NCBI RefSeq assembly: GCF_001904745.1 | Contig: NZ_MRCD01000084.1 | Location: forward strand, 1 to 36,219 | DNA length: 36,219 nt | Source of the DNA: Calothrix sp. HK-06 | GTDB lineage: Bacteria > Cyanobacteriota > Cyanobacteriia > Cyanobacteriales > Nostocaceae | Reading direction: 5' to 3' | Shown here: positions 5,510 to 27,314 of the stretch, in pieces | Numbering within the stretch: the stretch's first letter is position 1 | Layout of the letters: each line of letters starts with the position of its first letter | Position numbers and translations under genes: made by a program | The notes under the pieces: generated by a model | What the model saw: only the letters and a program-made list of their open reading frames with translations | Told to the model about the DNA's origin: nothing | The model's database searches: none

Positions 5510-5977
5510 TTACCGTCCAGGAAGTCGCGTCTTCACCTCCTGGAGTACCCAACCGTTGCCGTCGGGATCGCTGAACGACGCATATGAGGCATAGTCGCGA
5601 CGTTTCGGATCGGGACCAGGTAAGCGTCCCTCGGTTCCGGCGTGGTGGAATATCCCTCCGATGTCGTGGAACACCTCACTCACCTCGACACCACGATCGA
5701 CGAGTTCGGCGCGCGCTGCCTCGATGTCGTAAACTATCAGGTACAGACCCTGAACTGAACCTGGCGCCGAATTCGTAATTCCTTTACCGAAGATGATTGA
5801 GGCTTCTGAGCCAGGAGGCGTTAACTGCACTACCCGGAAGTCCTCACTAGTGACGAAGTCGGCATCCAGCCGCCACCCCAACGTTTTATAGAAGTCCTTG
5901 GACTGATCCACATCGGAGACGGGCAATACCACAACTTCGAGTTTCATGTTTTGACCGTTTACGTAATTGCTACTCAT
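5510..5977 (-). CDS. VOC family (glyoxalase/bleomycin-resistance-like) protein, copy 2
   Basis: The second copy of the VOC gene at 370-837, with the same length (155 residues) and the same AAGGAG site 6 nt before the ATG. Differences are S8G, two changes in the FVTNENF/FVTSEDF segment, and E/D in AELVERG/AELVDRG. All are conservative, so both copies should fold and both may be functional. It is the most upstream gene of the minus-strand group, with 1.5 kb of non-coding DNA behind it, so a promoter should lie in the duplicated segment at about 5978-6092. Confidence 0.85.
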   Translation of the reverse strand: MSSNYVNGQNMKLEVVVLPVSDVDQSKDFYKTLGWRLDADFVTSEDFRVVQLTPPGSEASIIFGKGITNSAPGSVQGLYLIVYDIEAARAELVDRGVEVSEVFHDIGGIFHHAGTEGRLPGPDPKRRDYASYASFSDPDGNGWVLQEVKTRLPGR

Positions 5978-7534: not shown

Positions 7535-10500
7535 ATGATTGATCGATCTGGAATTGTTATCCAAAGCAAAATCTATGAAAGTTCAACATCTTTGGTGTAT
7601 CGGGGCATCAGGGATGATGGACTAGCAATAATCGTAAAAATGCTCAAACAAGATTATCCTTCTCCTCAAGAGTTGACCCGCTACAGACAGGAGTATGTAA
7701 TTACCCGTTCCCTCAACCTGGAAGGAGTTGTCAAAGCATACAGCCAGCACGATTATCAACGCACTCTCGCTATTATATTAGAAGATTTTAGCGGAGAGTC
7801 TTTGAAGCATTGGATACAAAGGCGCCCTCAGTGCTTCTGCCCGATGCCCTTATTGAGTTTTCTGCGTCTTGCCATCGACCTGACAGAGATTTTGGCTCAA
7901 ATCCATGCAGCCAATGTCATTCATAAGGATATTAACCCTGGAAATATCGTCTACAATCCCGATACTGGCGTTGTCAAAATTATTGACTTTGGGATTGCCA
8001 CCCGATTTAACCGCACAAACCCAACTTTCAAAAGCCTTCATATATTAGAAGGTACACCTGCGTATATATCTCCTGAGCAGACTGGGCGGATGAACCGTTT
8101 GCTCGATTATCGTAGCGATTTTTACTCGCTGGGTGTGACATTTTACGAACTGCTAACTGGGCATTTGCCGTTTACGACAACGGACATGCTTGAGCTAGTT
8201 CATTGCCATATTGCCAAACAGCCGATTGAACCAAGTCAGGTCAATGCAACAATTCCTAAACCAATTTCAGACCTGATTTTAAAATTGATGGCGAAGAATG
8301 CCGAGGATCGTTATCAGAGTGCGTGGGGCATCAAAGCAGATCTAGAAAGCTGTTTTGAGCAATTCCTACAAACAGGTAAAATTAAGAACATTCAGCTAGG
8401 TCTGCAAGACGTTTCGGATCAGTTTCAAATTCCCCAAAAACTGTATGGGCGGGAAGCAGAGATTCGAGGATTATTGGCAGCGTTTGACAGAGTTGCAGGA
8501 ACGGGGAAGCAAGAAAACTCTCAATCTCAAGTCGAGATGATGTTGGTTTGTGGCTACGCTGGTATTGGTAAATCAGCACTAGTGCAGGAACTGTACAAAC
8601 CGCTCACCGAAAAGCGCGGCTATTTTATCTGTGGGAAATTCGATCAATTTCAGCGCAATATTCCCTACAGCGCAATCGTCGATGCCCTGCAAAAACTTGT
8701 GCAGCAACTGCTCGGAGAACCAGAGGAACAGATACAACAGTGGCGCTTCCAGCTGATAACGGCTTTGGGAAGCAACGCACAAATTATCATTGACGTGATC
8801 CCTGAAGTTGAATTGATTATTGGCAAGCAACCACCCGTACCAGAAGTAGGAGCAACTGAAGCTCAAAATCGCTTTCATCTAATCTTTCAGAAGTTTGTGC
8901 GGGTGTTTTGTACAGAGGAACATCCGCTTGTGATCTTTTTAGATGATTTGCAGTGGATAGACTCAGCAACGCTTAAATTAATCGAGCTAATGCTGCTTGA
9001 TGAACAAACCCAATTCTTATTTTTAATTGGCGCCTATCGAGACTCGGAAGTACATCCAACACATCCACTAGCATTAACGCTCTCGAAACTGCGAAAACTT
9101 GGCGCAGTGCTTCACGAGATTATTCTGGCGCCTTTAACACTGGAACCTTTGATTTGCTTGATTGCCGAAACGCTACATCAGGATGCAGAAACCGTCCGTA
9201 CTTTAGCTGAGTTGGTGCTGCATAAAACTGAGGGCAATCCTTTCTTTGTTGGTGAATTTCTGAGAATGCTGCACAGTGGAAATCTGCTAAAGTTTAACCT
9301 CGGTTGGCAGTGGAACATTGCCCAGATTCAAACGCAGGATATTACCGATAATGTGGTAGAGTTGCTGTTGAGACAGTTAAAAAAACTACCAGAAAACACA
9401 CAACAAATTCTTCGGTTAGCGGCTTGTGTCGGCGCCGAGTTTAATTTAGATACATTAGCTATCGTTTCTCAGCAATCTCCGAAAGCAGTTTCTCTAGATT
9501 TACTGGCAGCGATTCAAGCTGGACTAATTCAACCTCTATCTGAATTAAACAAAGACTTGTTGGTTCAAGAGTATAAGTTTTTGCACGACCGCGTACAGCA
9601 AGCCGCCTATGCCTTGATTGATCAGTCACAAAAACAAGCTGTTCATCTACAAATTGGTCGCAATCTCCTCAAAAAAGCATTACCAAAGGCACTATCAGAT
9701 CAACTATTTCAAATTGTTGATCATTTGAATCATGGAATTGAGCTTGTTACCGATCAAGTCGAACGAAATGAAATTGCTCGATTAAATTTAATCGCAGGTC
9801 AGAAAGCAAAGGCAGCGATCGCCTATAGTATGGCTGAAAAGTATTTAGCTGCAGGTCGAGCATGGCTGGCAACTTCTTGTTGGCAAATTAACTATGAGCT
9901 GACATTAGAGTTATATTTAGAAACAATAGAAGTTGCGTATTTATGTGCCAATTTTGAGCAAGTAGAATCGTGGGGCGCCATCGTTCTGCAATCCGCTAAA
10001 ACGGTTCTCGACATTGTAAGAGTTTACGAAGTTAAAATTCAAACCTATGTGGCGCAGTGCCAGCCATTGAAAGCGATCGATACTGCATTGCAAGTTTTAC
10101 AGCAACTGGGGATTACTTTTTCGGAAACGCTCACTCAGTCAGATATTCAGCTTGAGCTAGATGCCATCACATCCCTTTTAAATAAGAAACCAATCAGGGA
10201 CTTGATCTATTTACCGACAATGACTGAGCCGGACAAGTTAGCAGCAATGCAAATCTTATCCAGCATAACGATTGCTGCCTATATTGCTGCTCCCAATTTG
10301 ATGCCTCTACTTGTATCAAAACAGGTCAACTTGTCTATCAAATATGGCAATACATTTGTATCTGCCTTCGCATATGCCAACTTTGGGTTTGTTCTTTGTG
10401 GGATAGTCGGAAATATAGAAATTGGCTACGAGTTTGGACAGCTTGCTCTAAGGCTGTTGTCGCTGGCAAATACCCATTCGCCGCTTAGAGCTAAGACATT

Positions 10501-13459
10501 GCTGACCGTAAATAACTTTATCATCCATTGGAAAAAACATCTTAGAGAAATATCTAAGCCATTATTAGAGGGCTATCAAAGTGGGCTAGAAACAGGGGAT
10601 TTAGAGTTTGCTGCCTACTGTGCCCATTGTTACTGCCTCCAATCTTTCGTCGTTGGAAAGGAGCTTGTGGAAGTTGAACGCGAGATGGCAACATACAATG
10701 AAGCAATGCGTCAAATCAAGCAGGAAGCAGCACTCACCTGGACTCAAATATTTCATCAATCTGTCTTAAATTTGATGGGGTTCTCGGTAAATCCAACACG
10801 TCTACTTGGTGAATCCTACAATGAGGAGAATAGACCTCCACAATACGAAAAAGATAGAGTCGTAATCTTTCAGGTATATTTAAACAAACTCATCCTATGC
10901 TATTTATTTTCTGAGTATTCCCAGGCAGTTGAAAACGCAGCCCTCACGAAAAGTTATTTGATCCAAGGCAGAGCCGCCCCCCTTGAGCCTTTGTACTACT
11001 TCTATGATTCCTTAGTCAGACTCGCAACATATCCTGCTAGCAGCACTCAAGTCCAGGAGGAAATTCTTAAAGAAGTAGCCGTTAGCAAGAAGAAAATAGA
11101 GCAATGGGCATATTATGCGCCCATGAATCATTTGCATAAATACTATTTGGTGCAAGCGGAGACTGCACGAGTTTTGGGTCAGTTGTTTGAAGCAGAAGAA
11201 TTCTACGAACAAGCGATCCAAGGCGCCAGAGAAAATGGATATATCCAAGAAGAGGCGTTAGCATACGAATTGGCTGCTAAACATTATTTGGCACGAGGTA
11301 GGGAGAAAATTGCCCAAACATACATGAAGGAAGCACATTACTGCTACGAACGTTGGGGAGCAACTGCAAAGGTTAAGGATTTAGAAACTCGCTATCCGCA
11401 GCTATTTCTTCAGTTGACTCATACTTCAGCCCACAACACTTCTACCACCACTTCTAATAATTCAGACATTGCTCTGGATTTAGCAGCAGTGATGAAAGCA
11501 TCACAAGCGATTGCTCGCGAAATTGAATTGGAGCAATTGCTCCATGCCTTGATGAAAATTTTAATCGAGAATGCTGGCGCCCAAACAGGATTTTTGATTT
11601 TGGAAAACTCAGGAAAATGGGTGATTGAAGCGTCGGGTCAACTCGATGATATAAATAATGAGATAAATAATGAGAATGTTTGTGTTACGCACGTATTACA
11701 ATCTATCCCAATAACAAATTGCCTGCCTGAATCTATTATTAATTACGTGATTCGCACTCATAAACCTATCATCTTAAATGACGCGACGAATGAAGGTAAT
11801 TTTATCAATGAGCCATACATTCGGCGCCATCAGCCCCAGTCAATTTTGTGTTTGCCACTGGTAAATCAAGGCAAGCTCGTCAGCGTGTTGTATTTAGAGA
11901 ATAAACTAGCAGTCGGAGTATTTACTAAAGAGCGCTCACAAGTTTTAAACCTATTATCGACCCAAGCAGCCATTGCCATTGAAAATGCCAAACTCTACTC
12001 AAAGCTACGCGAAAGCGAAAGTAAAATGGCTCAATTTCTAGAAGCTGTCCCAGTAGCAATTGTAGTAGTGGATGCGACTGGTCACTTTTACTATGCTAAT
12101 CAACGCAGGGTTCAAATAGTAGGTAAAGCCATCGATCCTGCGGTGAGAGCGGATCAATTTGCAGAGGTTTATCAATTTTATCAGGCGGGAACAAATCAAA
12201 AATATCCAACTGAGAAACTGCCAATTATCCGCGCGTTGCAGGGTGAACGCACCACGGTTGACGATATGGAAATTTGCCAAAGCAACAAAACAATTCCAAT
12301 TGAGGCTTGGGGAACTCCAGTGTTTGACGAACAGGGCAAGGTGGCTTATGCAATCGTAGCCTTTCAAGACATTACAGAGCGGAAACAGACAGAGCAACTG
12401 TTAGCCGATTACAATCGCACCTTAGAACAACAGGTTGCAGAACGAACGGCGGCTTTACAAAAAAGCGAAGCAGCACTGCGCGAGCGAGAACAGGAATTGC
12501 GGCTGATCACAGATGCTTTACCTGTTTGTATCTGTTATGTAGATGCCGACCAGCGCTATAAGTTTGTCAACCATACTTATGAGGTCTGGTTTAGCTGTAG
12601 TCGAAATGAAGTTTTGGGCAAGCATACCCGTGAATTTCTGGGTGAGGCAGCTTATCAAATTGTCGAGCCGTATATCAATCAAGCGTTGGCAGGACAAATT
12701 ACAACTTATGAAGCAGAAATACCCTATTTATTTAGTAAAAAGTATATTAGTGCTACCTTGATCCCCGATTTTGCTTCCGGTACTCAAGTGAGAGGATATT
12801 ATGGTCTAATCACAGACATTAGTGATCGCAAACGCGCCGAGCAAGCCTCGATTCTGGAAGAACGCAACCGCATGGCGCGAGAAATACACGATACGTTGGC
12901 TCAAGCGTTTACTGGGATTTTGGTTCAGGTAGGAGCTGCGACCCAAGTAATAAGAGATGATCTCGAAGCAACCCAGGCACACCTGGAAATAATTGATGAA
13001 TTGGCACGTACCGGACTGGCTGAGGCACGTCGCTCAGTGTCAGCACTCCGTCCTCAACTATTGGAGGAAGGCAGCTTACATAGTGCCATGCATCGGCTCG
13101 TGACTCAAATGAGAGCCATTACGAATGCCGCTTTGATTTATGAAATTCGAGGTACAGCCTATCCTTTACCAACTGAGGTTGAGAATAACTTATTCCGGAT
13201 TGGACAGGAAGCATTGACTAATGCCACAAAATATGCTCATGCTGAAGAAATTCGGATTGAGTTGGTGTATGAAAACACACAATGTATCTTGCGGATTAAA
13301 GATAATGGGTTGGGCTTCGGGCTTGGTAGTATCCCACGTGTTGGCGGCTTTGGATTGCTAGGAATGAGCGAACGGGCAGAAAATATTGGGGCACAACTGT
13401 CGATTAGGAGCCAACCTGGACAAGGAACAGAAATTCTTGTCATTGTAAATCGAGATTGA
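7535..13459 (+). CDS. Giant Ser/Thr kinase-AAA ATPase-GAF-PAS-histidine kinase hybrid
   Basis: A 1974-residue signalling protein. Residues about 5-275 form a Ser/Thr kinase domain with catalytic loop HKDINPGN (Asp132), DFG and the APE-like SPEQ segment. A STAND/AAA_16 NTPase follows, with Walker A GYAGIGKS (Lys346) and Walker B LVIFLDDLQW. Residues about 700-1300 are helical and repeat-like. Then come a GAF domain (about 1330-1490), two PAS domains (about 1500-1620 and 1650-1770), a HisKA_3 helix AREIHDTLAQAF with His1785, and an ATPase with N box FRIGQEALTNATKYA and G1 DNGLGFG. It lacks transmembrane segments, so it is probably cytoplasmic. GGAG lies 8 nt before the ATG. The HisKA_3 type predicts a NarL-class partner, and one lies 1.2 kb downstream. 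Both kinase activities look intact. Confidence 0.93.
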   Translation: MIDRSGIVIQSKIYESSTSLVYRGIRDDGLAIIVKMLKQDYPSPQELTRYRQEYVITRSLNLEGVVKAYSQHDYQRTLAIILEDFSGESLKHWIQRRPQCFCPMPLLSFLRLAIDLTEILAQIHAANVIHKDINPGNIVYNPDTGVVKIIDFGIATRFNRTNPTFKSLHILEGTPAYISPEQTGRMNRLLDYRSDFYSLGVTFYELLTGHLPFTTTDMLELVHCHIAKQPIEPSQVNATIPKPISDLILKLMAKNAEDRYQSAWGIKADLESCFEQFLQTGKIKNIQLGLQDVSDQFQIPQKLYGREAEIRGLLAAFDRVAGTGKQENSQSQVEMMLVCGYAGIGKSALVQELYKPLTEKRGYFICGKFDQFQRNIPYSAIVDALQKLVQQLLGEPEEQIQQWRFQLITALGSNAQIIIDVIPEVELIIGKQPPVPEVGATEAQNRFHLIFQKFVRVFCTEEHPLVIFLDDLQWIDSATLKLIELMLLDEQTQFLFLIGAYRDSEVHPTHPLALTLSKLRKLGAVLHEIILAPLTLEPLICLIAETLHQDAETVRTLAELVLHKTEGNPFFVGEFLRMLHSGNLLKFNLGWQWNIAQIQTQDITDNVVELLLRQLKKLPENTQQILRLAACVGAEFNLDTLAIVSQQSPKAVSLDLLAAIQAGLIQPLSELNKDLLVQEYKFLHDRVQQAAYALIDQSQKQAVHLQIGRNLLKKALPKALSDQLFQIVDHLNHGIELVTDQVERNEIARLNLIAGQKAKAAIAYSMAEKYLAAGRAWLATSCWQINYELTLELYLETIEVAYLCANFEQVESWGAIVLQSAKTVLDIVRVYEVKIQTYVAQCQPLKAIDTALQVLQQLGITFSETLTQSDIQLELDAITSLLNKKPIRDLIYLPTMTEPDKLAAMQILSSITIAAYIAAPNLMPLLVSKQVNLSIKYGNTFVSAFAYANFGFVLCGIVGNIEIGYEFGQLALRLLSLANTHSPLRAKTLLTVNNFIIHWKKHLREISKPLLEGYQSGLETGDLEFAAYCAHCYCLQSFVVGKELVEVEREMATYNEAMRQIKQEAALTWTQIFHQSVLNLMGFSVNPTRLLGESYNEENRPPQYEKDRVVIFQVYLNKLILCYLFSEYSQAVENAALTKSYLIQGRAAPLEPLYYFYDSLVRLATYPASSTQVQEEILKEVAVSKKKIEQWAYYAPMNHLHKYYLVQAETARVLGQLFEAEEFYEQAIQGARENGYIQEEALAYELAAKHYLARGREKIAQTYMKEAHYCYERWGATAKVKDLETRYPQLFLQLTHTSAHNTSTTTSNNSDIALDLAAVMKASQAIAREIELEQLLHALMKILIENAGAQTGFLILENSGKWVIEASGQLDDINNEINNENVCVTHVLQSIPITNCLPESIINYVIRTHKPIILNDATNEGNFINEPYIRRHQPQSILCLPLVNQGKLVSVLYLENKLAVGVFTKERSQVLNLLSTQAAIAIENAKLYSKLRESESKMAQFLEAVPVAIVVVDATGHFYYANQRRVQIVGKAIDPAVRADQFAEVYQFYQAGTNQKYPTEKLPIIRALQGERTTVDDMEICQSNKTIPIEAWGTPVFDEQGKVAYAIVAFQDITERKQTEQLLADYNRTLEQQVAERTAALQKSEAALREREQELRLITDALPVCICYVDADQRYKFVNHTYEVWFSCSRNEVLGKHTREFLGEAAYQIVEPYINQALAGQITTYEAEIPYLFSKKYISATLIPDFASGTQVRGYYGLITDISDRKRAEQASILEERNRMAREIHDTLAQAFTGILVQVGAATQVIRDDLEATQAHLEIIDELARTGLAEARRSVSALRPQLLEEGSLHSAMHRLVTQMRAITNAALIYEIRGTAYPLPTEVENNLFRIGQEALTNATKYAHAEEIRIELVYENTQCILRIKDNGLGFGLGSIPRVGGFGLLGMSERAENIGAQLSIRSQPGQGTEILVIVNRD

Positions 13460-13467
13460 GAATTATT

Positions 13468-13617
13468 ATGAGTTAATCAATGATTATTCGAGTTATGATT
13501 GTTGAAGTTTATTGCATTGTCAGGCAAAGATTGGCGCCATCATTAACCGCGAATCTAATTTTAGATAAATTGGCAAACGCTCGCGCTAAAGCGGTGATTG
13601 TGGCAATTAGACAATGA
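13468..13617 (+). pseudogene. Relic of the NarL response regulator with a large internal deletion
   Basis: The DNA right after the kinase repeats the start of the real regulator gene at 14647: ATGAGT, then TAATCA where the regulator has CAATCA (a stop at codon 3), then a recognisable ATTATTCGAGTTATGATTGT. After about 28 codons it jumps to the regulator's C-terminus: NLILDKLANARAKAVIVAIR aligns with NRILSKLGVNDRTQAVIVAVK. The phospho-acceptor region and most of the HTH are gone. It shows that the regulator, or the kinase-regulator pair, was once duplicated here. Confidence 0.8.
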
Positions 13618-13662
13618 ATTGTCAATTTGTCAGCAAATCTTACAAAGGTTTAAATAGGGATT

Positions 13663-13806
13663 GCAACTTTAGTTGGAGCCTTGCTTTGATTTTGAGGTGG
13701 AATGATTTATCAATCACTTTATTGTGCAAAAGTTTCATCTCAAAGTGGACGGCAAACCGAAATTAATTGCATATATTGAATACATGCAAACATTGATAGC
13801 AATGCC
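13663..13806 (+). promoter_or_regulatory. Conserved ~140-nt non-coding element, copy A (upstream of the crystallin gene)
   Basis: The first of three related blocks (others at 15299-15435 and 23588-23756). Shared landmarks in order: CAACTTTAGTTGG, TTTTGAGxTGG, TGATTTATCAA, AAAAGTTTCA, GTGGACG, ATATTGAAT, CAAACATTGAT. It is the most diverged copy. It ends about 130 nt before the crystallin ATG and starts 46 nt after the regulator relic. It is non-coding in all frames; it is probably a promoter/leader or an old repeat. Confidence 0.7.
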
Positions 13807-13936
13807 CATTGCAAGATAATAGTTTGCTTCACACAAATATCATAGTTCGAGGGTTGTATAGCGCTCGTTGCGATGAGCATTTTTCTCTCGGAGATATTTT
13901 AAAAGTATCAAACCTATTGTTCTCAAGGAAAAAATA

Positions 13937-14281
13937 ATGTTGACTAAGAACTTTACAGTTTTGGCAGTTTTAAGTGCCAGTTTGATATCTGGCGCCATTC
14001 ACCAAACAAGCGTATCGGCACAAAGTGTACCAGATGTAACTTTATGGGATCAGCAAATTGGTAGAGGAGCATCATTTAAGACAAATAAAGCCGTGGCAGA
14101 TTTAAGTAAGTATGGATTTAACGACAAAGCCTCAGCGATTCAAGTCAATAATGGTCAGAAGTGGAGGTTTTACGCAGGCAAAAACTTCACAGGTGAATAT
14201 ATTGATGTAGGCCCAGACGAGGCTGTTGGAAGTATTGGTCGGCTCAACAATAGAATCTCATCTCTCAAAGCAATTAATTAA
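13937..14281 (+). CDS. Exported beta/gamma-crystallin family protein
   Basis: A 114-residue protein with a signal peptide (hydrophobic residues 7-21, likely cleavage after VSAQ near residue 29). The mature part is one crystallin domain of two Greek keys: FNDKASAIQV (61-70) and KWRFYAGKNFTGEYIDVG (75-92), ending RLNNRISSLKAI. NDKASA (62-67) and NNRISS (104-109) fit the N/D-N/D-x-x-S/T-S calcium-site pattern, the second perfectly. The protein thus probably binds Ca2+ in the periplasm or outside. AAGGA lies 8 nt before the ATG. It lies between the large kinase and its regulator behind conserved element A, which suggests, but does not prove, control by that pair. Confidence 0.88.
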   Translation: MLTKNFTVLAVLSASLISGAIHQTSVSAQSVPDVTLWDQQIGRGASFKTNKAVADLSKYGFNDKASAIQVNNGQKWRFYAGKNFTGEYIDVGPDEAVGSIGRLNNRISSLKAIN

Positions 14282-14452
14282 ATCCCCCCAACCTACGCCA
14301 CAAAAGCAAGGGCAGGGAAAACCCTCGGAAGTTTCGAGCATAAAAGCAAACCCTACGGGTTATGGCGGATACCGCTCAAACTTCTCTGGGTACGCAAGTG
14401 GCTCCCTTTATTAAGGGGGGCTAAGAACAATAATGTCCATCTTCATATAAAA
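14282..14452. other. Gene-free spacer bounded by a C-run and a G-run
   Basis: It starts with AAATCCCCCC after the crystallin stop and ends with TTAAGGGGGGC near 14412-14422, so the ends could pair weakly and act as a terminator or be ends of a small repeat. The open frame across it on the plus strand looks accidental. Confidence 0.35.
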
Positions 14453-14618
14453 ATGGTATTACAGGCGGAACCAAAGTATGGGCGAAGCTATTGTCAAACG
14501 TCTAAGGCAAGCTGGTGCAACGGTTATTACAACCGCTCGCTCAAAGCCCAATGAATTTCAATCGTCGGATTTATTATCGGATCTGATATTAGTACGCCTG
14601 ATAGAGTGGGAAAAGTAG
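14453..14618 (+). pseudogene. SDR oxidoreductase relic, N-terminal part with frameshifts
   Basis: ITGGTK is followed, after an apparent one-base loss (accaaagtatggg), by MGEAIVKRLRQAGATVITTA, which is the Rossmann start of an SDR. A second frame change brings in SDISTPDRVGKVV, the expected next strand. The rest of the enzyme is missing. The relic runs straight into a copy of the large kinase's last codons (IVNRY and stop, versus IVNRD and stop), marking a recombination junction. Confidence 0.75.
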
Positions 14619-14646
14619 TCATTGTAAATCGATATTAAGAATTATT
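14616..14646 (+). repeat. Copy of the kinase 3' end and regulator leader
   Basis: TCATTGTAAATCGA, then the stop and GAATTATTATGAG, repeats 13439-13474 almost exactly. The same kinase-tail/regulator-start junction therefore occurs twice, 1.18 kb apart, as expected for a tandem duplication followed by loss of the second kinase body. Confidence 0.8.
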
Positions 14647-15276
14647 ATGAGCCAATCAACTATTATTCGAGTTATGATTGTTGACGATCATTCAATTGTC
14701 AGGCAAGGATTGGCAACCATCATTAACCGCGATCCAGAAATGACGGTTATTGCTCAAGCAGAAGATGGGCAACAAGCAATAAATTACTTTCGTGAATACC
14801 AACCAGATGTAACGTTAATGGATTTACGAATGCCGCAAATGGGAGGAGTTGAAGCTATTACTGCTATTTGTGCTGAATTTAAACCTGCCCGAATAGTAGT
14901 ACTAACTACCTATGATGGTGATGAAGATATTTATCGTGGATTGCAGGCAGGCGCCAAAGGGTATTTGCTTAAGGATGCTAAACCCAACGAACTTCTGAGT
15001 GCAATTCGCATCATTCATGGCGGTCAGCAGTATATTCCACCAGAAGTTGGGGCAAAACTGGTGCAGCGGATGAGCAATCCAGAACTGAGTGAGCGAGAGC
15101 TAGAAGTGCTGCGTTTAATGGCGCAAGGGATGAGTAATTTAGATATTGCTACTGCCCTAATTATCGGTGAAAGCACCGTCAAATCTCACGTTAATCGAAT
15201 TTTAAGTAAATTGGGAGTGAACGATCGCACTCAAGCCGTAATTGTTGCCGTAAAACGAGGCATTGTTAGTTTGTAA
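14647..15276 (+). CDS. NarL/FixJ-type response regulator
   Basis: A 209-residue regulator. Residues 7-120 form the receiver domain with acidic pair Asp13-Asp14, phospho-acceptor Asp59 in VTLMDLRMPQ, the TTYDGDE switch segment and Lys109 in YLLKDAKP. Residues about 145-207 are a LuxR-type HTH (SERELEVLRLMAQGMSN, then GESTVKSHVNRILSKLG). The length is normal and nothing is missing. It is the natural partner for the HisKA_3 kinase at 7535-13459: it stood directly after a copy of the kinase 3' end, and a relic of itself still follows the intact kinase. No strong ribosome site is visible before the ATG. Its DNA target is unknown; the element at 15299-15435 just downstream is a candidate. Confidence 0.93.
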   Translation: MSQSTIIRVMIVDDHSIVRQGLATIINRDPEMTVIAQAEDGQQAINYFREYQPDVTLMDLRMPQMGGVEAITAICAEFKPARIVVLTTYDGDEDIYRGLQAGAKGYLLKDAKPNELLSAIRIIHGGQQYIPPEVGAKLVQRMSNPELSERELEVLRLMAQGMSNLDIATALIIGESTVKSHVNRILSKLGVNDRTQAVIVAVKRGIVSL

Positions 15277-15298
15277 TCAAGTAGTATTTTAATTTTAA

Positions 15299-15435
15299 TT
15301 CCAACTTTAGTTGGAACCAACCTTCCATTTTGAGATGGGCTGATTCATCAATCACACTACTAAACAAAAGTTTCAACTTATAGTGGACGACTTCTTAGAG
15401 TCAATTGGATATATTGAATTCATACAAACATTGAT
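15299..15435 (+). promoter_or_regulatory. Conserved ~140-nt non-coding element, copy B (upstream of a small exported protein)
   Basis: It begins with the perfect dyad TTCCAACTTTAGTTGGAA (15299-15316) 22 nt after the regulator stop and ends about 40 nt before the next start codon. It matches copy C at 23588-23756 closely over its full length and copy A more loosely. It contains the shared blocks CCATTTTGAGATGG, TCAATCACACTA, AAAAGTTTCAACT, GTGGACGACTT, TTAGAGTCA and GGATATATTGAATTCATAC. Confidence 0.75.
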
Positions 15436-15474: not shown

Positions 15475-15867
15475 ATGAAAACACTAACTATGAAAACACT
15501 TCGGAAGCAAATTTTATTATTGCTTGGTTCGATGACTTGCCTTTCAGTCTATCTTTCCTTACCTGCCTCGGCAGACTCTACGGCTAACTTAATACTCAGT
15601 TTGAAATGCCAAAATGAGTATACCGTTAATATTTGGAAAAGGCATAATTCGGGCGAACTTCTCTACCGTGCTACAGGACCTCTAGGAAATTTGAGTTTGG
15701 GAAAAGGAACTGGAAATAATACAGGATCAGCCCAAGTTTACAAATTTAAAAATGGCGAGTATGAATATCAAGTGCTTGGGGGTAGGGGAGATCACCAAGG
15801 AAAAGGAACGTTAGAGGTATATAAGAACGGTAACTCCATTTTTACTCAAACTTGTACACCTCAATAA
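15475..15867 (+). CDS. Small exported hypothetical protein
   Basis: A 130-residue product with two possible ATG starts (15475 and 15490), both giving a signal peptide: a basic MKTLRKQ stretch, a hydrophobic core, and cleavage after LPASA near residue 33. The mature 97 residues look beta-rich and contain two cysteines (SLKCQNEY and TQTCTPQ), which may form a disulfide. A YEYQVLGGRGDHQGKGTLEV stretch is notable. No family is recognised with certainty. It sits 40-55 nt behind conserved element B and 199 nt behind the response regulator, parallel to the crystallin gene behind element A. Confidence 0.75.
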   Translation: MKTLTMKTLRKQILLLLGSMTCLSVYLSLPASADSTANLILSLKCQNEYTVNIWKRHNSGELLYRATGPLGNLSLGKGTGNNTGSAQVYKFKNGEYEYQVLGGRGDHQGKGTLEVYKNGNSIFTQTCTPQ

Positions 15868-23437: not shown

Positions 23438-23587
23438 AGGGGCTTCAACCGAATATTTTGTTTTTGTTTATGAGTACAATTTTACTTTTTACTTTTGCCT
23501 CGTTTGTTTCAGTGCTGCCAAGTTCTTCTAAAATAGGCGTGTTTAGCAAGGCGCCTGTATTAAGGCAATAAGCTAATTAAGCAAACT

Positions 23588-23756
23588 CAACTAAAGTTGG
23601 AATTTAAATTCCAACTTTAGTTGGAGTCAAACTACCATTTTGAGATGGAGTGATTTATCAACCACACTATTTAAGAAAAGTTTCAACTCAAAATGGACGA
23701 CTTGTTAGAGTCAGTTGGATATATTAAATTCATACAAGCATTGATAGCAATGCCTG
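23588..23756 (+). promoter_or_regulatory. Conserved ~140-nt non-coding element, copy C, led by a 36-nt perfect palindrome
   Basis: The palindrome at 23588-23623 is built from CAACTAAAGTTGGAATTT and its exact complement. The rest follows copy B block by block: CCATTTTGAG (23635-23644) and its perfect inverted partner CTCAAAATGG (23687-23696), ATGGACGACTT, GTTAGAGTCA, GGATATATT and CATACAA. Copy C thus holds the best-kept inner stem. It ends about 90 nt before a short ORF with a strong ribosome site, which leads into the DsbA-like gene. Confidence 0.75.
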
Positions 23757-23847: not shown

Positions 23848-23967
23848 ATGTTTAAATTAAAACAACTAACTACTCTAGTATTTTTAACAGTTACTTTTGT
23901 TAGGAATTGGCAATCACTTACAGTAAACCTGCTTTTTCTAGGAGGTATAAGTGTGCTGTTACCGTGA
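23848..23967 (+). CDS. Short ORF with signal-peptide-like N-terminus, overlapping the DsbA-like gene
   Basis: A very good AAGGAGG site lies 6 nt before the ATG. The 39 codons begin MFKLKQLTTLVFLTVTFVRN, a plausible signal peptide, and the stop lies 17 nt inside the following DsbA-like gene in another frame. Removing one base near the GTTAGG would give VGIGNHLQ, so it may be the frameshifted stub of an exported protein, parallel to those behind elements A and B. Alternatively it is a coupled leader peptide. I cannot decide between these. Confidence 0.4.
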   Translation: MFKLKQLTTLVFLTVTFVRNWQSLTVNLLFLGGISVLLP

Positions 23968-24508
23968 TCACAGTTCGTTATTCGTCCCACCTTTAACACA
24001 GGATCACATAAAAGGTGTGTTAAATGCAACCGTAGTAGTGATGATGTATGGGGACTATCAATGTTGTCAGAATGCAGATGTTTATAGGCTAATTAAAGTC
24101 ATTCAACAACAGCTTAGTGCTTCTTTTGGAGAAAATTATTTGTGCCTCATCTTCCGTCATTTTCCACAGATACATATCCATTCTCATGCTCAACGTGCAG
24201 CAGAAGCGGCAGAAGCGGCTGCTGTCCAAGGTAAGTTTTGGCAAATGCATAATATTCTATTCACCCATCAACAACATTTAGGAAACGGCTATCTTGTAGA
24301 ATATGCCAATAATCTAGGACTTGATATTTCCCAATTTCTGCAAGATATGTCTAAAAAAGTGCATATCGACCGCATTAATCAAGATATCGCTCATGGATTA
24401 CACAGTGGAGTAACGACTGCCCCAGCATTGTTTATTAATGGAATTCGCTATAACGCTCGCTGGAACATTGAGCAGTTAATGGCAGCCATTATCTCTGCAA
24501 GTAATTAA
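23951..24508 (+). CDS. DsbA-like thioredoxin-fold protein without a CxxC motif
   Basis: A 185-residue thioredoxin-fold protein of the DsbA/Thioredoxin_4 type. The GTG at 23951 has AGGAGG 5 nt upstream. Family landmarks are VVVMMYGDYQC (28-38), FRHFPQIHIHSHAQRAAEAA, GKFWQMHNILF, and the cis-proline strand TTAPALFING (Pro158). At the active site, where CPxC is expected, the sequence is C38-C39-Q-N, so the second redox cysteine is replaced by Asn41 and an extra Cys follows the first. It cannot act as a normal dithiol oxidase but could be a monothiol, chaperone or binding form. No signal peptide is present, so it is predicted to be cytoplasmic. Confidence 0.85.
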   Translation: MCCYRDHSSLFVPPLTQDHIKGVLNATVVVMMYGDYQCCQNADVYRLIKVIQQQLSASFGENYLCLIFRHFPQIHIHSHAQRAAEAAEAAAVQGKFWQMHNILFTHQQHLGNGYLVEYANNLGLDISQFLQDMSKKVHIDRINQDIAHGLHSGVTTAPALFINGIRYNARWNIEQLMAAIISASN

Positions 24509-24557: not shown

Positions 24558-25190
24558 ATGAAACTTATTTCTGTCAACGCAGGACTTCCGCGTCAAGTAA
24601 CCTGGAACGGAAAAACAGTGACAACTGGAATTTTCAAAGAACCAGTCAGCGAACGGGTGATGGTACGATCGCTTAATTTAGATGGTGATGGACAAGCTGA
24701 TCTAACCGTTCATGGCGGAGTAGACAAAGCAGTTTATATATATCCATTTGAGCATTACGATTACTGGCGAGGTCAATTGCTTGATACAGAGCTACCGCTA
24801 GGCATCTTTGGTGAGAATTTTACAACTACTGGGTTGAGAGAAGAGGAGGTGAACATTGGGGATTGCTTTAAAATCGGCAATGTAAAACTAATGGTAACAC
24901 AACCTCGCCTACCCTGCTACAAACTTGGGATTCGGTTTGGACGAGCGGATATGGTGAAACAATTTCTCGCGAGTCGTCGAACCGGATTTTACTTTCGTGT
25001 TTTGCAAGAGGGCGAAGTTGGCGCCGGAGACACTCTAGAGTTGGTGAGCCGGGACGAGAACAATGTTACGGTTGCCAATATTACTCAACTTTATGTTCGT
25101 GAGCAGGACAATCGAGAGTTACTTTACCGCGCAACTCAACTTGAAGCTTTACCCAAAAGTTGGCGTGATTACTTCAATCGCTTTTTTTAA
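24558..25190 (+). CDS. MOSC domain protein (YiiM-like)
   Basis: A 210-residue protein starting MKLISVNAGLPRQV. The MOSC beta-barrel (about residues 5-155) includes DLTVHGGVDKAVY (49-61), FGENFTTTGL and the conserved MVTQPRLPCYKLG with Cys120, the residue that carries the molybdenum cofactor sulfur chemistry in MOSC proteins. The C-terminal three-helix part ends EALPKSWRDYFNRFF, as in YiiM, which reduces N-hydroxylated compounds with Moco. It is probably a cytoplasmic Moco-dependent or cofactor-handling protein. A fragment of a second copy is at 949-1173. It follows the DsbA-like gene by 49 nt and may be cotranscribed with it. Confidence 0.9.
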   Translation: MKLISVNAGLPRQVTWNGKTVTTGIFKEPVSERVMVRSLNLDGDGQADLTVHGGVDKAVYIYPFEHYDYWRGQLLDTELPLGIFGENFTTTGLREEEVNIGDCFKIGNVKLMVTQPRLPCYKLGIRFGRADMVKQFLASRRTGFYFRVLQEGEVGAGDTLELVSRDENNVTVANITQLYVREQDNRELLYRATQLEALPKSWRDYFNRFF

Positions 25191-25290
25191 GATATGAGAC
25201 GGGGAGCGCATTTAATTTTTCGCATTTAATTTTTCAATCCTCATTCACACAAATACTTCAACTTCACTTTTATAAACAAGGAGCAAAATC

Positions 25291-26181
25291 ATGATCACAT
25301 TTCGCACAGTTTCGATAGATGGTTTAGATATCTTCTATCGAGAAGCTGGTTCCCGCGACAATCCGACAATTTTGCTGTTGCACGGCTTTCCAACTTCCTC
25401 TCATATGTTCCGTAATCTAATACCTGCACTTGCAGATAAATTTCATCTGGTTGCCCCTGATTATCCAGGTTACGGAAACAGTTCAATGCCAAGCGTGCAT
25501 GAGTTTGACTACACGTTTGATCACCTAGCTGAGATCATGGAGAAATTTATTACCGCGATTGATCTCAAGCAATATAGCCTTTACGTAATGGATTATGGCG
25601 CCCCGATTGGTTACCGGATTGCGGCTAAATATCCAGAGCGAGTGCAAACCCTAATTGTTCAAAATGGAAATGCCTATGAGGAAGGTCTGCGCGAATTTTG
25701 GGAACCCATCAAGGCATACTGGCAAGACCGTTCGCCTGAGAATGCTGAAAAACTAAAATATTTAGTCACTCTAGAAGCAACGAAATGGCAGTACACTAAT
25801 GGTATTCGCAACCTGGAAGCGATTAGCCCGGATACCTGGAATATGGATCAGCTCTTCCTTGATCGCCCTGGAAATGGTGAGATTCAAATGGCGCTACTTT
25901 ATAGCTATGGCACAAATCCACCGTTATACCCACAATGGCAGGAATATTTTCGCCAACATCAACCCCCTACCCTTATTGTTTGGGGTAAAAACGACTACAT
26001 CTTCCCTGCCGACGGTGCTTATCCCTACCAGCGCGACCTGAAAGATGTTGAGCTTCATTTACTCGATACCGGACATTTTGCCTTGGAAGAGGACGGCGAT
26101 GCGATTGCAGACTATATGCGTCAGTTTATAACCACTCACCTTGTAAACCAGAACATCATATTAGCAGCCAGCAGGAAATAA
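25291..26181 (+). CDS. Alpha/beta hydrolase, epoxide hydrolase/haloalkane dehalogenase type
   Basis: A 296-residue alpha/beta hydrolase. The oxyanion motif is HGFP (31-34). The nucleophile elbow VMDYGAPIG has Asp101 rather than Ser, the mark of epoxide hydrolases and haloalkane dehalogenases, and the catalytic base is His262 in DTGHFALEE. The acid should be in WGKNDYIFP. Cap-domain helices lie between about 130 and 210. AAGGAG lies before the ATG (about 8 nt). The substrate is unknown. It stands between a MOSC gene and a second, serine-type hydrolase on the same strand, which suggests a small detoxification cluster. Confidence 0.88.
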
Positions 26182-26318
26182 TTTCAACTGGGAAGCGATG
26201 TCGTAGAAGGTGATTGTCATCCACAATCATTGCCCGTTAACAAACACTGTCAAATTAACTAGCTTAACGGCGCCACTTCAATAAATTGTTTATCATTCAT
26301 CAACAAAAGGAGAACGTC

Positions 26319-27314
26319 ATGGTTTCTCAAGTAAATCCGCAAGCAATCAAAGTTTTGGAAGTTGCAGATGATCCGCGTCTTTCCAGGGGAACGAAGGTAT
26401 TTTTGAAAGAGTTGAACTCAGCAGGTGTGGCTCTAGAGACACTCGCTCCACTCGAAGCACGTCAAGTACTCGTGGATGCACAAGCTGCTGTTAAGGTTGA
26501 CCTCTCAGGCATCGACGAGTTTGAGAAGACAATTACCACTGACGGTTATTCGATTACGCTCAACATCGTGCGCCCTAAAGGTGTCAAAAGCATATTGCCT
26601 GTTTTCATGTTTATTCATGGCGGCGGTTGGGTACTAGGCGATTACCCAACGCACAAGCGCATGGTTCGCGATCTCGTCGTGCTTTCAGGTTTTGCTGCTG
26701 TCTTTGTCAATTACACTCGAACTCCAGACGCTGAGTATCCACAAGCTATCAATGAGATCTATGCTGCGACCAAATGGGTCGCCGAGCATGGTGAGGAGAT
26801 TGGGGTTGATGGCAAAAATTTGGCAATCGTAGGAAACAGTGTCGGCGGTAATATGTCGGCAGTAACCACGTTGATGGCGAAAGCGAAAGGAGGCCCACAC
26901 ATTAAGTTGCAAATTCTGATGTGGCCCATCGTAGACGCTGATTTTGAAACGAATTCTTACCACCAATTCGGGGACAAGCGTTTCCTAACCACACCGACGA
27001 TGAAGTGGATGTATGACATGTACATCGCTGACCCAGAAAAGCGCAAAGACATCTATGCCTCTCCTTTACGGGCTACTGTTGAGCAGTTGAAAGGCTTACC
27101 TCCAGCGTTAATTCAGATTGCAGAGAGCGATATTTTGCATGATGAAGGCGAAGCCTATGGACGCAAGCTAGATGAAGCAGGGGTAAACGTGACAACCGTG
27201 CGTTACAACGGCATGATTCATGACTTCGGACTGCTGAATGGTTTAGCCGAGCTTCCATCAACCCGCTCTCTTTTTGTCCAGGCAGCCGCCGAACTGAAAA
27301 AGCATCTGCAATAG
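26319..27314 (+). CDS. Alpha/beta hydrolase fold-3 (HSL-type) esterase
   Basis: I use the ATG at 26319 (MVSQVNPQAIK) because AAGGAG lies 6 nt upstream; the ATG at 26286 has none. The 331-residue enzyme has the HSL oxyanion motif HGGG (100-103) and nucleophile elbow GNSVGG with Ser174 (GDSAGG in most relatives). The acid is in QIAESDILHDEG, and the base is the His of GMIHDFGLLNG. All catalytic parts are present, so it is probably an active short-chain carboxylesterase in the cytoplasm. It is the last gene of the plus-strand group; hairpins and a transposase relic follow. Confidence 0.9.
   Translation: MVSQVNPQAIKVLEVADDPRLSRGTKVFLKELNSAGVALETLAPLEARQVLVDAQAAVKVDLSGIDEFEKTITTDGYSITLNIVRPKGVKSILPVFMFIHGGGWVLGDYPTHKRMVRDLVVLSGFAAVFVNYTRTPDAEYPQAINEIYAATKWVAEHGEEIGVDGKNLAIVGNSVGGNMSAVTTLMAKAKGGPHIKLQILMWPIVDADFETNSYHQFGDKRFLTTPTMKWMYDMYIADPEKRKDIYASPLRATVEQLKGLPPALIQIAESDILHDEGEAYGRKLDEAGVNVTTVRYNGMIHDFGLLNGLAELPSTRSLFVQAAAELKKHLQ

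Follow-up and report, generated by a model that had tools for sequence, protein, structure and literature searches.

A dispersed cassette with promoter-like features predicted to serve a giant Ser/Thr-His kinase and NarL-type regulator in Calothrix sp. HK-06 and other cyanobacteria

Two kinds of described system come closest to the locus considered here. The first is the set of NarL-regulated promoters of Escherichia coli, of which ogt and yeaR-yoaG are treated in the accessible part of PMC7419079. In these promoters, the sites are seven-base inverted repeats with a 2 bp spacer (7-2-7) and are arranged in tandem, with one site abutting the -35 element; at ogt, the sites are centred at -44.5 and -77.5. 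The second is HstK of Anabaena, a protein with both Ser/Thr and His kinase domains (PMC2176072); the accessible part of that paper describes no operator or regulon for the HstK-type class.

The stretch of DNA analysed here (hereafter, the window) comprises 36,219 nt of a Calothrix sp. HK-06 contig, and encodes a kinase of the HstK type: Pkinase, GAF, HisKA_3 and HATPase_c domains lie in one protein. To our knowledge, few outputs of this giant kinase class have been described. The kinase and regulator pair in the window differs from the HstK type in that it carries its own predicted promoter cassette (hereafter, the block). The block shares with the E. coli promoters the repeat length, the 2 bp spacer, the tandem arrangement and the site abutting the -35 element, but differs from them in (i) its half-site, TCCAACT, (ii) the presence of four sites, three good and one weak, spaced on a 24-bp grid, whereas the accessible part of PMC7419079 gives two sites 33 bp apart for ogt, (iii) the 3-bp spacer of its +72 site, and (iv) the conservation and repetition of the whole ~150-bp promoter. 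A literature search returned no title recognisably on this block, and the letters of its head dyad gave no paper.

From the comparisons below, we consider it very probable that the block acts as an activator-dependent promoter under a NarL-type regulator and its giant Ser/Thr-His kinase, and that it has been dispersed as a ~150-bp cassette. Such a block would provide a predicted target promoter and regulon for the giant kinase class (in 62 of 388 class genomes and four plasmid records), a case in which sequences may reveal how promoters spread and specificity changes, and a collection of promoters ready for testing.

Genes and blocks in the window

The principal features of the window are as follows.

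7535-13459, + strand: giant hybrid kinase, 1974 aa, with Ser/Thr kinase, AAA_16, GAF, PAS, HisKA_3 and HATPase_c domains (Pfam)
13460-13647, + strand: relic of a first regulator that retains its two ends but not its middle (matched at DNA level by 14618-14732 and 15193-15435; regulator 3'-end profile)
13648-13802, + strand: block A
13937-14281, + strand: exported-type beta/gamma-crystallin protein, downstream of A (Pfam Crystall, E=8e-9)
14647-15276, + strand: NarL/LuxR-type response regulator, 209 aa, Response_reg and GerE (Pfam)
15289-15435, + strand: block B, starting 12 nt after the stop codon of the regulator
15475-15867, + strand: small exported-type protein with cysteines, downstream of B (no Pfam match at E<=0.001)
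23596-23750, + strand: block C, the copy with a perfect head dyad and inner stem
23951-24508, + strand: DsbA-like thioredoxin-fold protein, downstream of C (Pfam Thioredoxin_4/DSBA)
24558-27314, + strand: MOSC protein and two alpha/beta hydrolases, after the DsbA-like gene (Pfam)

An earlier note on this DNA described three related blocks sharing words in a fixed order. Alignment of the three agrees: A, B and C can be aligned over ~155 nt, with common words in identical order, and their similarity is far above chance (in a search of the Calothrix genome with block C, B is found at E=9e-45 and 87% identity, and A at E=5e-24 and 76% identity). The set was incomplete, in that the same search finds six copies in the genome. 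Three of these lie outside the window, at C227:37259, C199:33892 and C143:147; the C227 copy, on the same contig and ~1 kb past the window end, precedes a short-chain dehydrogenase gene (identified by eye). The same note placed two copies after the NarL regulator or its relic, and this also stands, for B and A respectively. Two pairs of segments match each other around these blocks (13439-13552 with 14618-14732 at 88%, and 13552-13797 with 15193-15435 at 71%), and A and B look like the outcome of a duplication in tandem that took in the kinase end, the regulator and the block.

The regulator combines a receiver and a GerE output domain (Pfam), the composition of NarL/LuxR two-component regulators, and the adjacent kinase carries the HisKA_3 domain (Pfam) expected of a partner histidine kinase; judged by their adjacency, the two would work as a pair. 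The DsbA-like gene, the MOSC gene and the two alpha/beta hydrolase genes probably form one operon. Where DsbA carries its CxxC motif, the letters in the DsbA-like protein (23951-24508) and in 52 relatives are of the CxQS or CCQN type (alignment A4, in which one row, L023, is not a true relative). The cysteine is absent from the columns conserved in 90% of the alignment, which makes it doubtful that the protein acts as a classical disulphide oxidase. Elsewhere in the window, two minus-strand glyoxalase-family ORFs (370-837 and 5510-5977) are identical at 151 of 155 residues, and are evidently a recent duplication; cupin, NAD-binding/epimerase and FMN reductase genes lie between them.

Dyads and promoter-like hexamers

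The dyad sites and hexamers of the three blocks, with coordinates read off the sequence, are listed below; the extra dyad precedes the head dyad of C by exactly 24 bp.

13661 (+0), 13685 (+24), 13709 (+48, barely a site) and 13733 (+72), + strand: starts of candidate dyad sites in A
15299, 15323, 15347 (barely a site) and 15371, + strand: starts of candidate dyad sites in B
23609, 23633, 23657 (barely a site) and 23681, + strand: starts of candidate dyad sites in C
23585-23601, + strand: extra near-perfect dyad, ACTCAACTAAAGTTGGA
near 13749, + strand: weak putative -35 hexamer of A, ACGGCA
13772-13777, + strand: putative -10 hexamer of A, TATATT
15410-15415, + strand: putative -10 hexamer of B, TATATT
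23720-23725, + strand: putative -10 hexamer of C, TATATT

The head dyad, to which the earlier note had drawn attention, consists of TCCAACT, a two-base spacer (TT) and AGTTGGA (7-2-7); it is perfect in B and C, and carries one change in A (TTGCAACTTTAGTTGGA). The inner stem proposed at the same time, CCATTTTGAG/CTCAAAATGG, is indeed perfect in C, but connects two distinct operator-like sites (+24 and +72).

Copies were collected with a sequence-only profile built from 42 copies (alignment A2; 42 of 57, with near-duplicates, weak copies and contig-end copies removed). After matches of fewer than 90 model positions or below 25 bits were dropped, 144 distinct copies were counted, of which the 105 with standard spacing were scanned for the dyad TTCCAACTNNAGTTGGA. 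The match peaks at offset 0 (13.76 of a maximum of 15), +72 (9.75) and +24 (9.64), against background offsets with a mean of 3.75, a standard deviation of 1.27 and a maximum of 7.10 (at -6). Since the head dyad sets both pattern and register, its own score is not an independent test, while those of the remaining offsets are. The signal at offset 73 (7.29) is a shadow of the 3-bp spacer in the +72 site, and the -24 site (7.25) barely stands out from the best background offset. The +48 slot reaches 5.85, with none of the 105 copies scoring 10 or more; the array is therefore not an even run, given that +48 is hardly a site and -24 only just exceeds the background. Autocorrelation of the profile tops at lags 72, 73, 24 and 48, with p<=0.0015 for lags 24, 48 and 72 (column shuffling). 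The block has what is expected of a NarL/LuxR regulon: 7-2-7 dyads in the candidate target promoters, one of them (+72, with a spacer of 3) beside the -35 position.

A hexamer that agrees with TATATT in at least 5 of 6 bases starts 18 nt past GGACGAC in 122 of 139 copies. Among the standard-spacing copies, TATATT is exact at the fixed place in 78 of 105, and the hexamer 17 nt ahead of it is ACGACA in 66 of 105. These agree with TATAAT at 5 of 6 bases and with TTGACA at 4 of 6, respectively. The arrangement reads best as dyads leading into a sigma-70-type promoter, with the last dyad centred ~42 bp upstream of the predicted start (taking the start as ~7 nt after the -10 hexamer, which places the centre of the +72 site near -42). 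An activator in contact with polymerase at the -35 would be expected at this position. The -35 hexamer is of low quality, ACGACA being the best form, and is weaker still in the window copies (ACGACT or ACGGCA); the promoters of A and B are missing from the output of a generic promoter scan. Across the weighted copies, conservation is concentrated on the dyads and the -35/-10 region, and fades within ~10 nt past the predicted start; in the alignment of close relatives, more of the leader is conserved, with some conservation beyond the predicted start. One candidate, a short 5' UTR peptide that looked conserved by eye in the alignment, was dropped because its ATG is often AGG or ATA.

Distribution of the block and the genes around it

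BLAST with block C finds the block in four of 60 relatives and 18 of 388 class genomes (own genome counted in both). Four plasmid records match at E<=1e-5 (Nostoc sp. UHCC 0926, Nostoc sp. C057, Fischerella sp. NIES-4106 and Kovacikia minuta), and six at ~2e-5 or better; the phage records gave no block match, and a phage link was rejected. With the profile, the block is present in 68 of the 388 class genomes; copy numbers are lower bounds, since at most six candidates per genome were scored and the filters were strict. The 17-base head dyad occurs in 91 genome-contig stretches, of which 30 have the block by the cut-off used; the remaining 61 were treated as chance or partial matches.

The earlier note had envisaged a portable 5' cassette tied to a kinase-regulator pair, and the genome counts bear this out. 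A match to the window regulator at E<=1e-70 is found in 96 of the 388 genomes. At E<=1e-90, 62 genomes have both regulator and block, one (G042) has the regulator only, six have the block only, and 319 have neither; the Fisher p-value of ~1e-63 is too strong, because related genomes are not independent. In the same order, the counts are 64, 32, 4 and 288 at E<=1e-70, and 58, 1, 10 and 319 at 1e-98. Among 81 distinct regulators, a block lies within 417 nt past the stop codon for 56 of the 62 with at least 78% identity (six of the 62 are without) and for none of the 19 with 75% identity or less. The block itself served to retrieve some of the loci in this count; within L149-L203, nearly all of which were picked by regulator match, a block is found at 27 of 33 close regulators. 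Two plasmid records show the order kinase, regulator, block, DsbA-like gene (the final gene of the second record carries a hypothetical annotation, and is DsbA-like by clustering).

A regulator lies directly upstream of the block in 60 of the 144 copies, and the block follows the stop codon after 11-15 nt in 48 of the 60; the test for regulator remains described below adds two further cases, and the other 82 copies are not directly behind a regulator. The first downstream ORF (mechanically called, at least 60 aa) is on the strand of the block in 128 of 135 cases, and in 75 of 80 where no adjoining regulator was seen. The outcome that the earlier note named as fatal to its reading, matches scattered without linkage, did not occur: the linkage is to the regulator and to gene starts generally.

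The commonest first downstream gene encodes a DsbA-like thioredoxin fold (62 of 134, matched to the DsbA-like protein of the window; the DsbA-like cluster holds 64 genes, two of which do not match that protein). Others are short-chain dehydrogenases (seven), a cupin group (seven), a GMC oxidoreductase group (five) and many small groups; among the 70 first genes that do not belong to the DsbA-like cluster, Pfam domains include Cupin_2 (eight), adh_short (seven) and GMC_oxred_N (five). The target theme, going by family names, looks like redox or electrophile handling. The earlier note had instead proposed exported proteins as the common theme. A and B do precede signal-peptide-like starts, while for C the signal-like start was seen by eye in a 39-codon ORF that overlaps the likely downstream gene, the DsbA-like one. 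By a rough hydrophobicity rule, exported-type starts are found in only 16 of 134 first genes (four of the 64 in the DsbA-like cluster and 12 of the 70 others, some doubtful), and the theme does not hold.

Two side observations concern neighbouring genes. Small exported proteins of the SLPASADSTA type recur after blocks of the Calothrix genome and of a relative (15475-15867, L024 at ~3337 and L030 at 8892-9266). At ten loci (L027, L186, L254, L261, L264, L268, L269, L273, L274 and L275), the block lies upstream of the N-terminal part of an oppositely running gene for a kinase like that of the window; the kinase match includes the first residue in seven of the ten. As the block points away from these kinase genes, some blocks seem to stand between divergent genes.

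We infer regulator binding, phosphorylation and activation, as well as the stress answered, in the following scheme. The giant Ser/Thr-His kinase would drive phosphorylation of the NarL/LuxR-type regulator encoded just after it, and dimers of the phosphorylated regulator would bind the 17-bp dyads (half-site TCCAACT, two-base spacer) along the 24-bp grid. At the +72 site, which abuts the poor -35 hexamer, a bound dimer would sit ~42 bp upstream of the start and could recruit RNA polymerase to the conserved -10, usually TATATT. The block would drive a DsbA-like gene in nearly half of cases and, in the others, varied genes, many for redox, detoxification or small exported proteins.

Alternative readings, specificity change and spread

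The earlier note had left a choice between structured leader RNA and operator array. A structured leader RNA or riboswitch-like 5' UTR element would be in keeping with dyads that could make hairpins, the inner stem that is perfect in C, and the conservation beyond the predicted start in close relatives. For 42 copies, RNAalifold predicted zero pairs. The cells of the inner stem pair in 75.2% of cases, against 74.9% with shuffled letters. On one of five measures, the stem exceeds most shuffles (both sides are changed in 17 cells, against 11.0 in shuffles, with six of 500 shuffles reaching 17), but 26 such cells result when the partner is shifted by one column. The other four measures show no excess over shuffles for the inner stem, and the three dyads taken as hairpins show none on any of the five. 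The window has no Rfam match at gathering scores, and the early loss of conservation past the predicted start in the weighted copies also speaks against a leader RNA. No consensus structure with compensatory changes, as expected of a structured cis-regulatory RNA, was found. With pair counts that lack consistent compensation, the block reads best as DNA, and we regard a leader RNA as very improbable; the operator array, with its dyads on a 24-bp grid running into promoter-like hexamers, is the option that has held up.

As DNA, the block could be nothing more than a dispersed repeat or a MITE, with no role in regulation: genomes carry several copies at 70-87% identity to block C, and in some genomes the copies cluster together. 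Such an element would have no fixed strand relation to its neighbours, whereas the block is oriented towards the downstream gene in nearly all cases; together with the fixed place behind one regulator, the co-occurrence with that regulator and the focus of conservation on the dyads and hexamers, this makes a mere repeat extremely improbable. Alternatively, the array could serve another DNA-binding protein, the regulator gene being a neighbour or a target. In favour of this are the inferential nature of regulator binding and the majority of copies that are not directly behind a regulator; against it stand the genome-by-genome co-occurrence, the missing block behind regulators of 75% identity or less, and the 7-2-7 layout, which is like that of the NarL sites in the accessible part of PMC7419079. 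The distant regulators also bear on this point. Five regulators at 74-75% identity have the recognition helix KSN rather than KSH. Behind the genes of four of these (L189-L192), a TGAACTTAAGTT-type palindrome lies at the same place (one base off in L191), and L189 has a second half-site 24 bp further on (by eye); the region behind the fifth gene, L194, has no such palindrome. A shared core, AACTNNAGTT, is unusual (p<=0.02, Markov control) behind six of 15 distant regulators, L191 not being among them (p=0.236). These observations, in modest numbers that include close relatives, suggest that regulator and site change together. An altered recognition helix accompanied by altered palindromes argues against another binding protein, which we hold to be improbable.

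Given the promoter reading, how might the block have spread? A profile test for regulator remains gave 14 hits in 82 copies, against three in 78 downstream control stretches, a control rate that leaves room for chance among the weakest hits. Of the 14, two are intact regulators and two are cut by contig ends, which leaves ten copies that are not directly behind a whole regulator yet keep a partial regulator match. Protein comparison also recovers seven of the ten, one of which has, in addition, a whole regulator ~860 nt upstream; the other three come from the DNA profile alone. Two are in the Calothrix genome: A, and the C199 copy, which matches regulator residues 130-209 at 94%.

A tree of 38 copies is mixed, with 20 of 35 inner branches weak. 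In it, the G172 copies cluster, as do the Kovacikia copies, the G315 copies fall in pairs, four close Nostoc genomes group by place, and the copies of the own genome are spread. The pattern is consistent, for some lineages, with copies having spread out of the regulator locus, the A/B tandem duplication being the clearest case; concerted change is a possible alternative account of the grouping of copies. Tentatively, and at somewhat less than even odds, we suggest that the regulon grows by copying of the ~150-bp operator-promoter cassette, sometimes with pieces of the regulator gene, to positions before new genes, and that duplicated pairs evolve new half-sites, giving rise to separate regulons.
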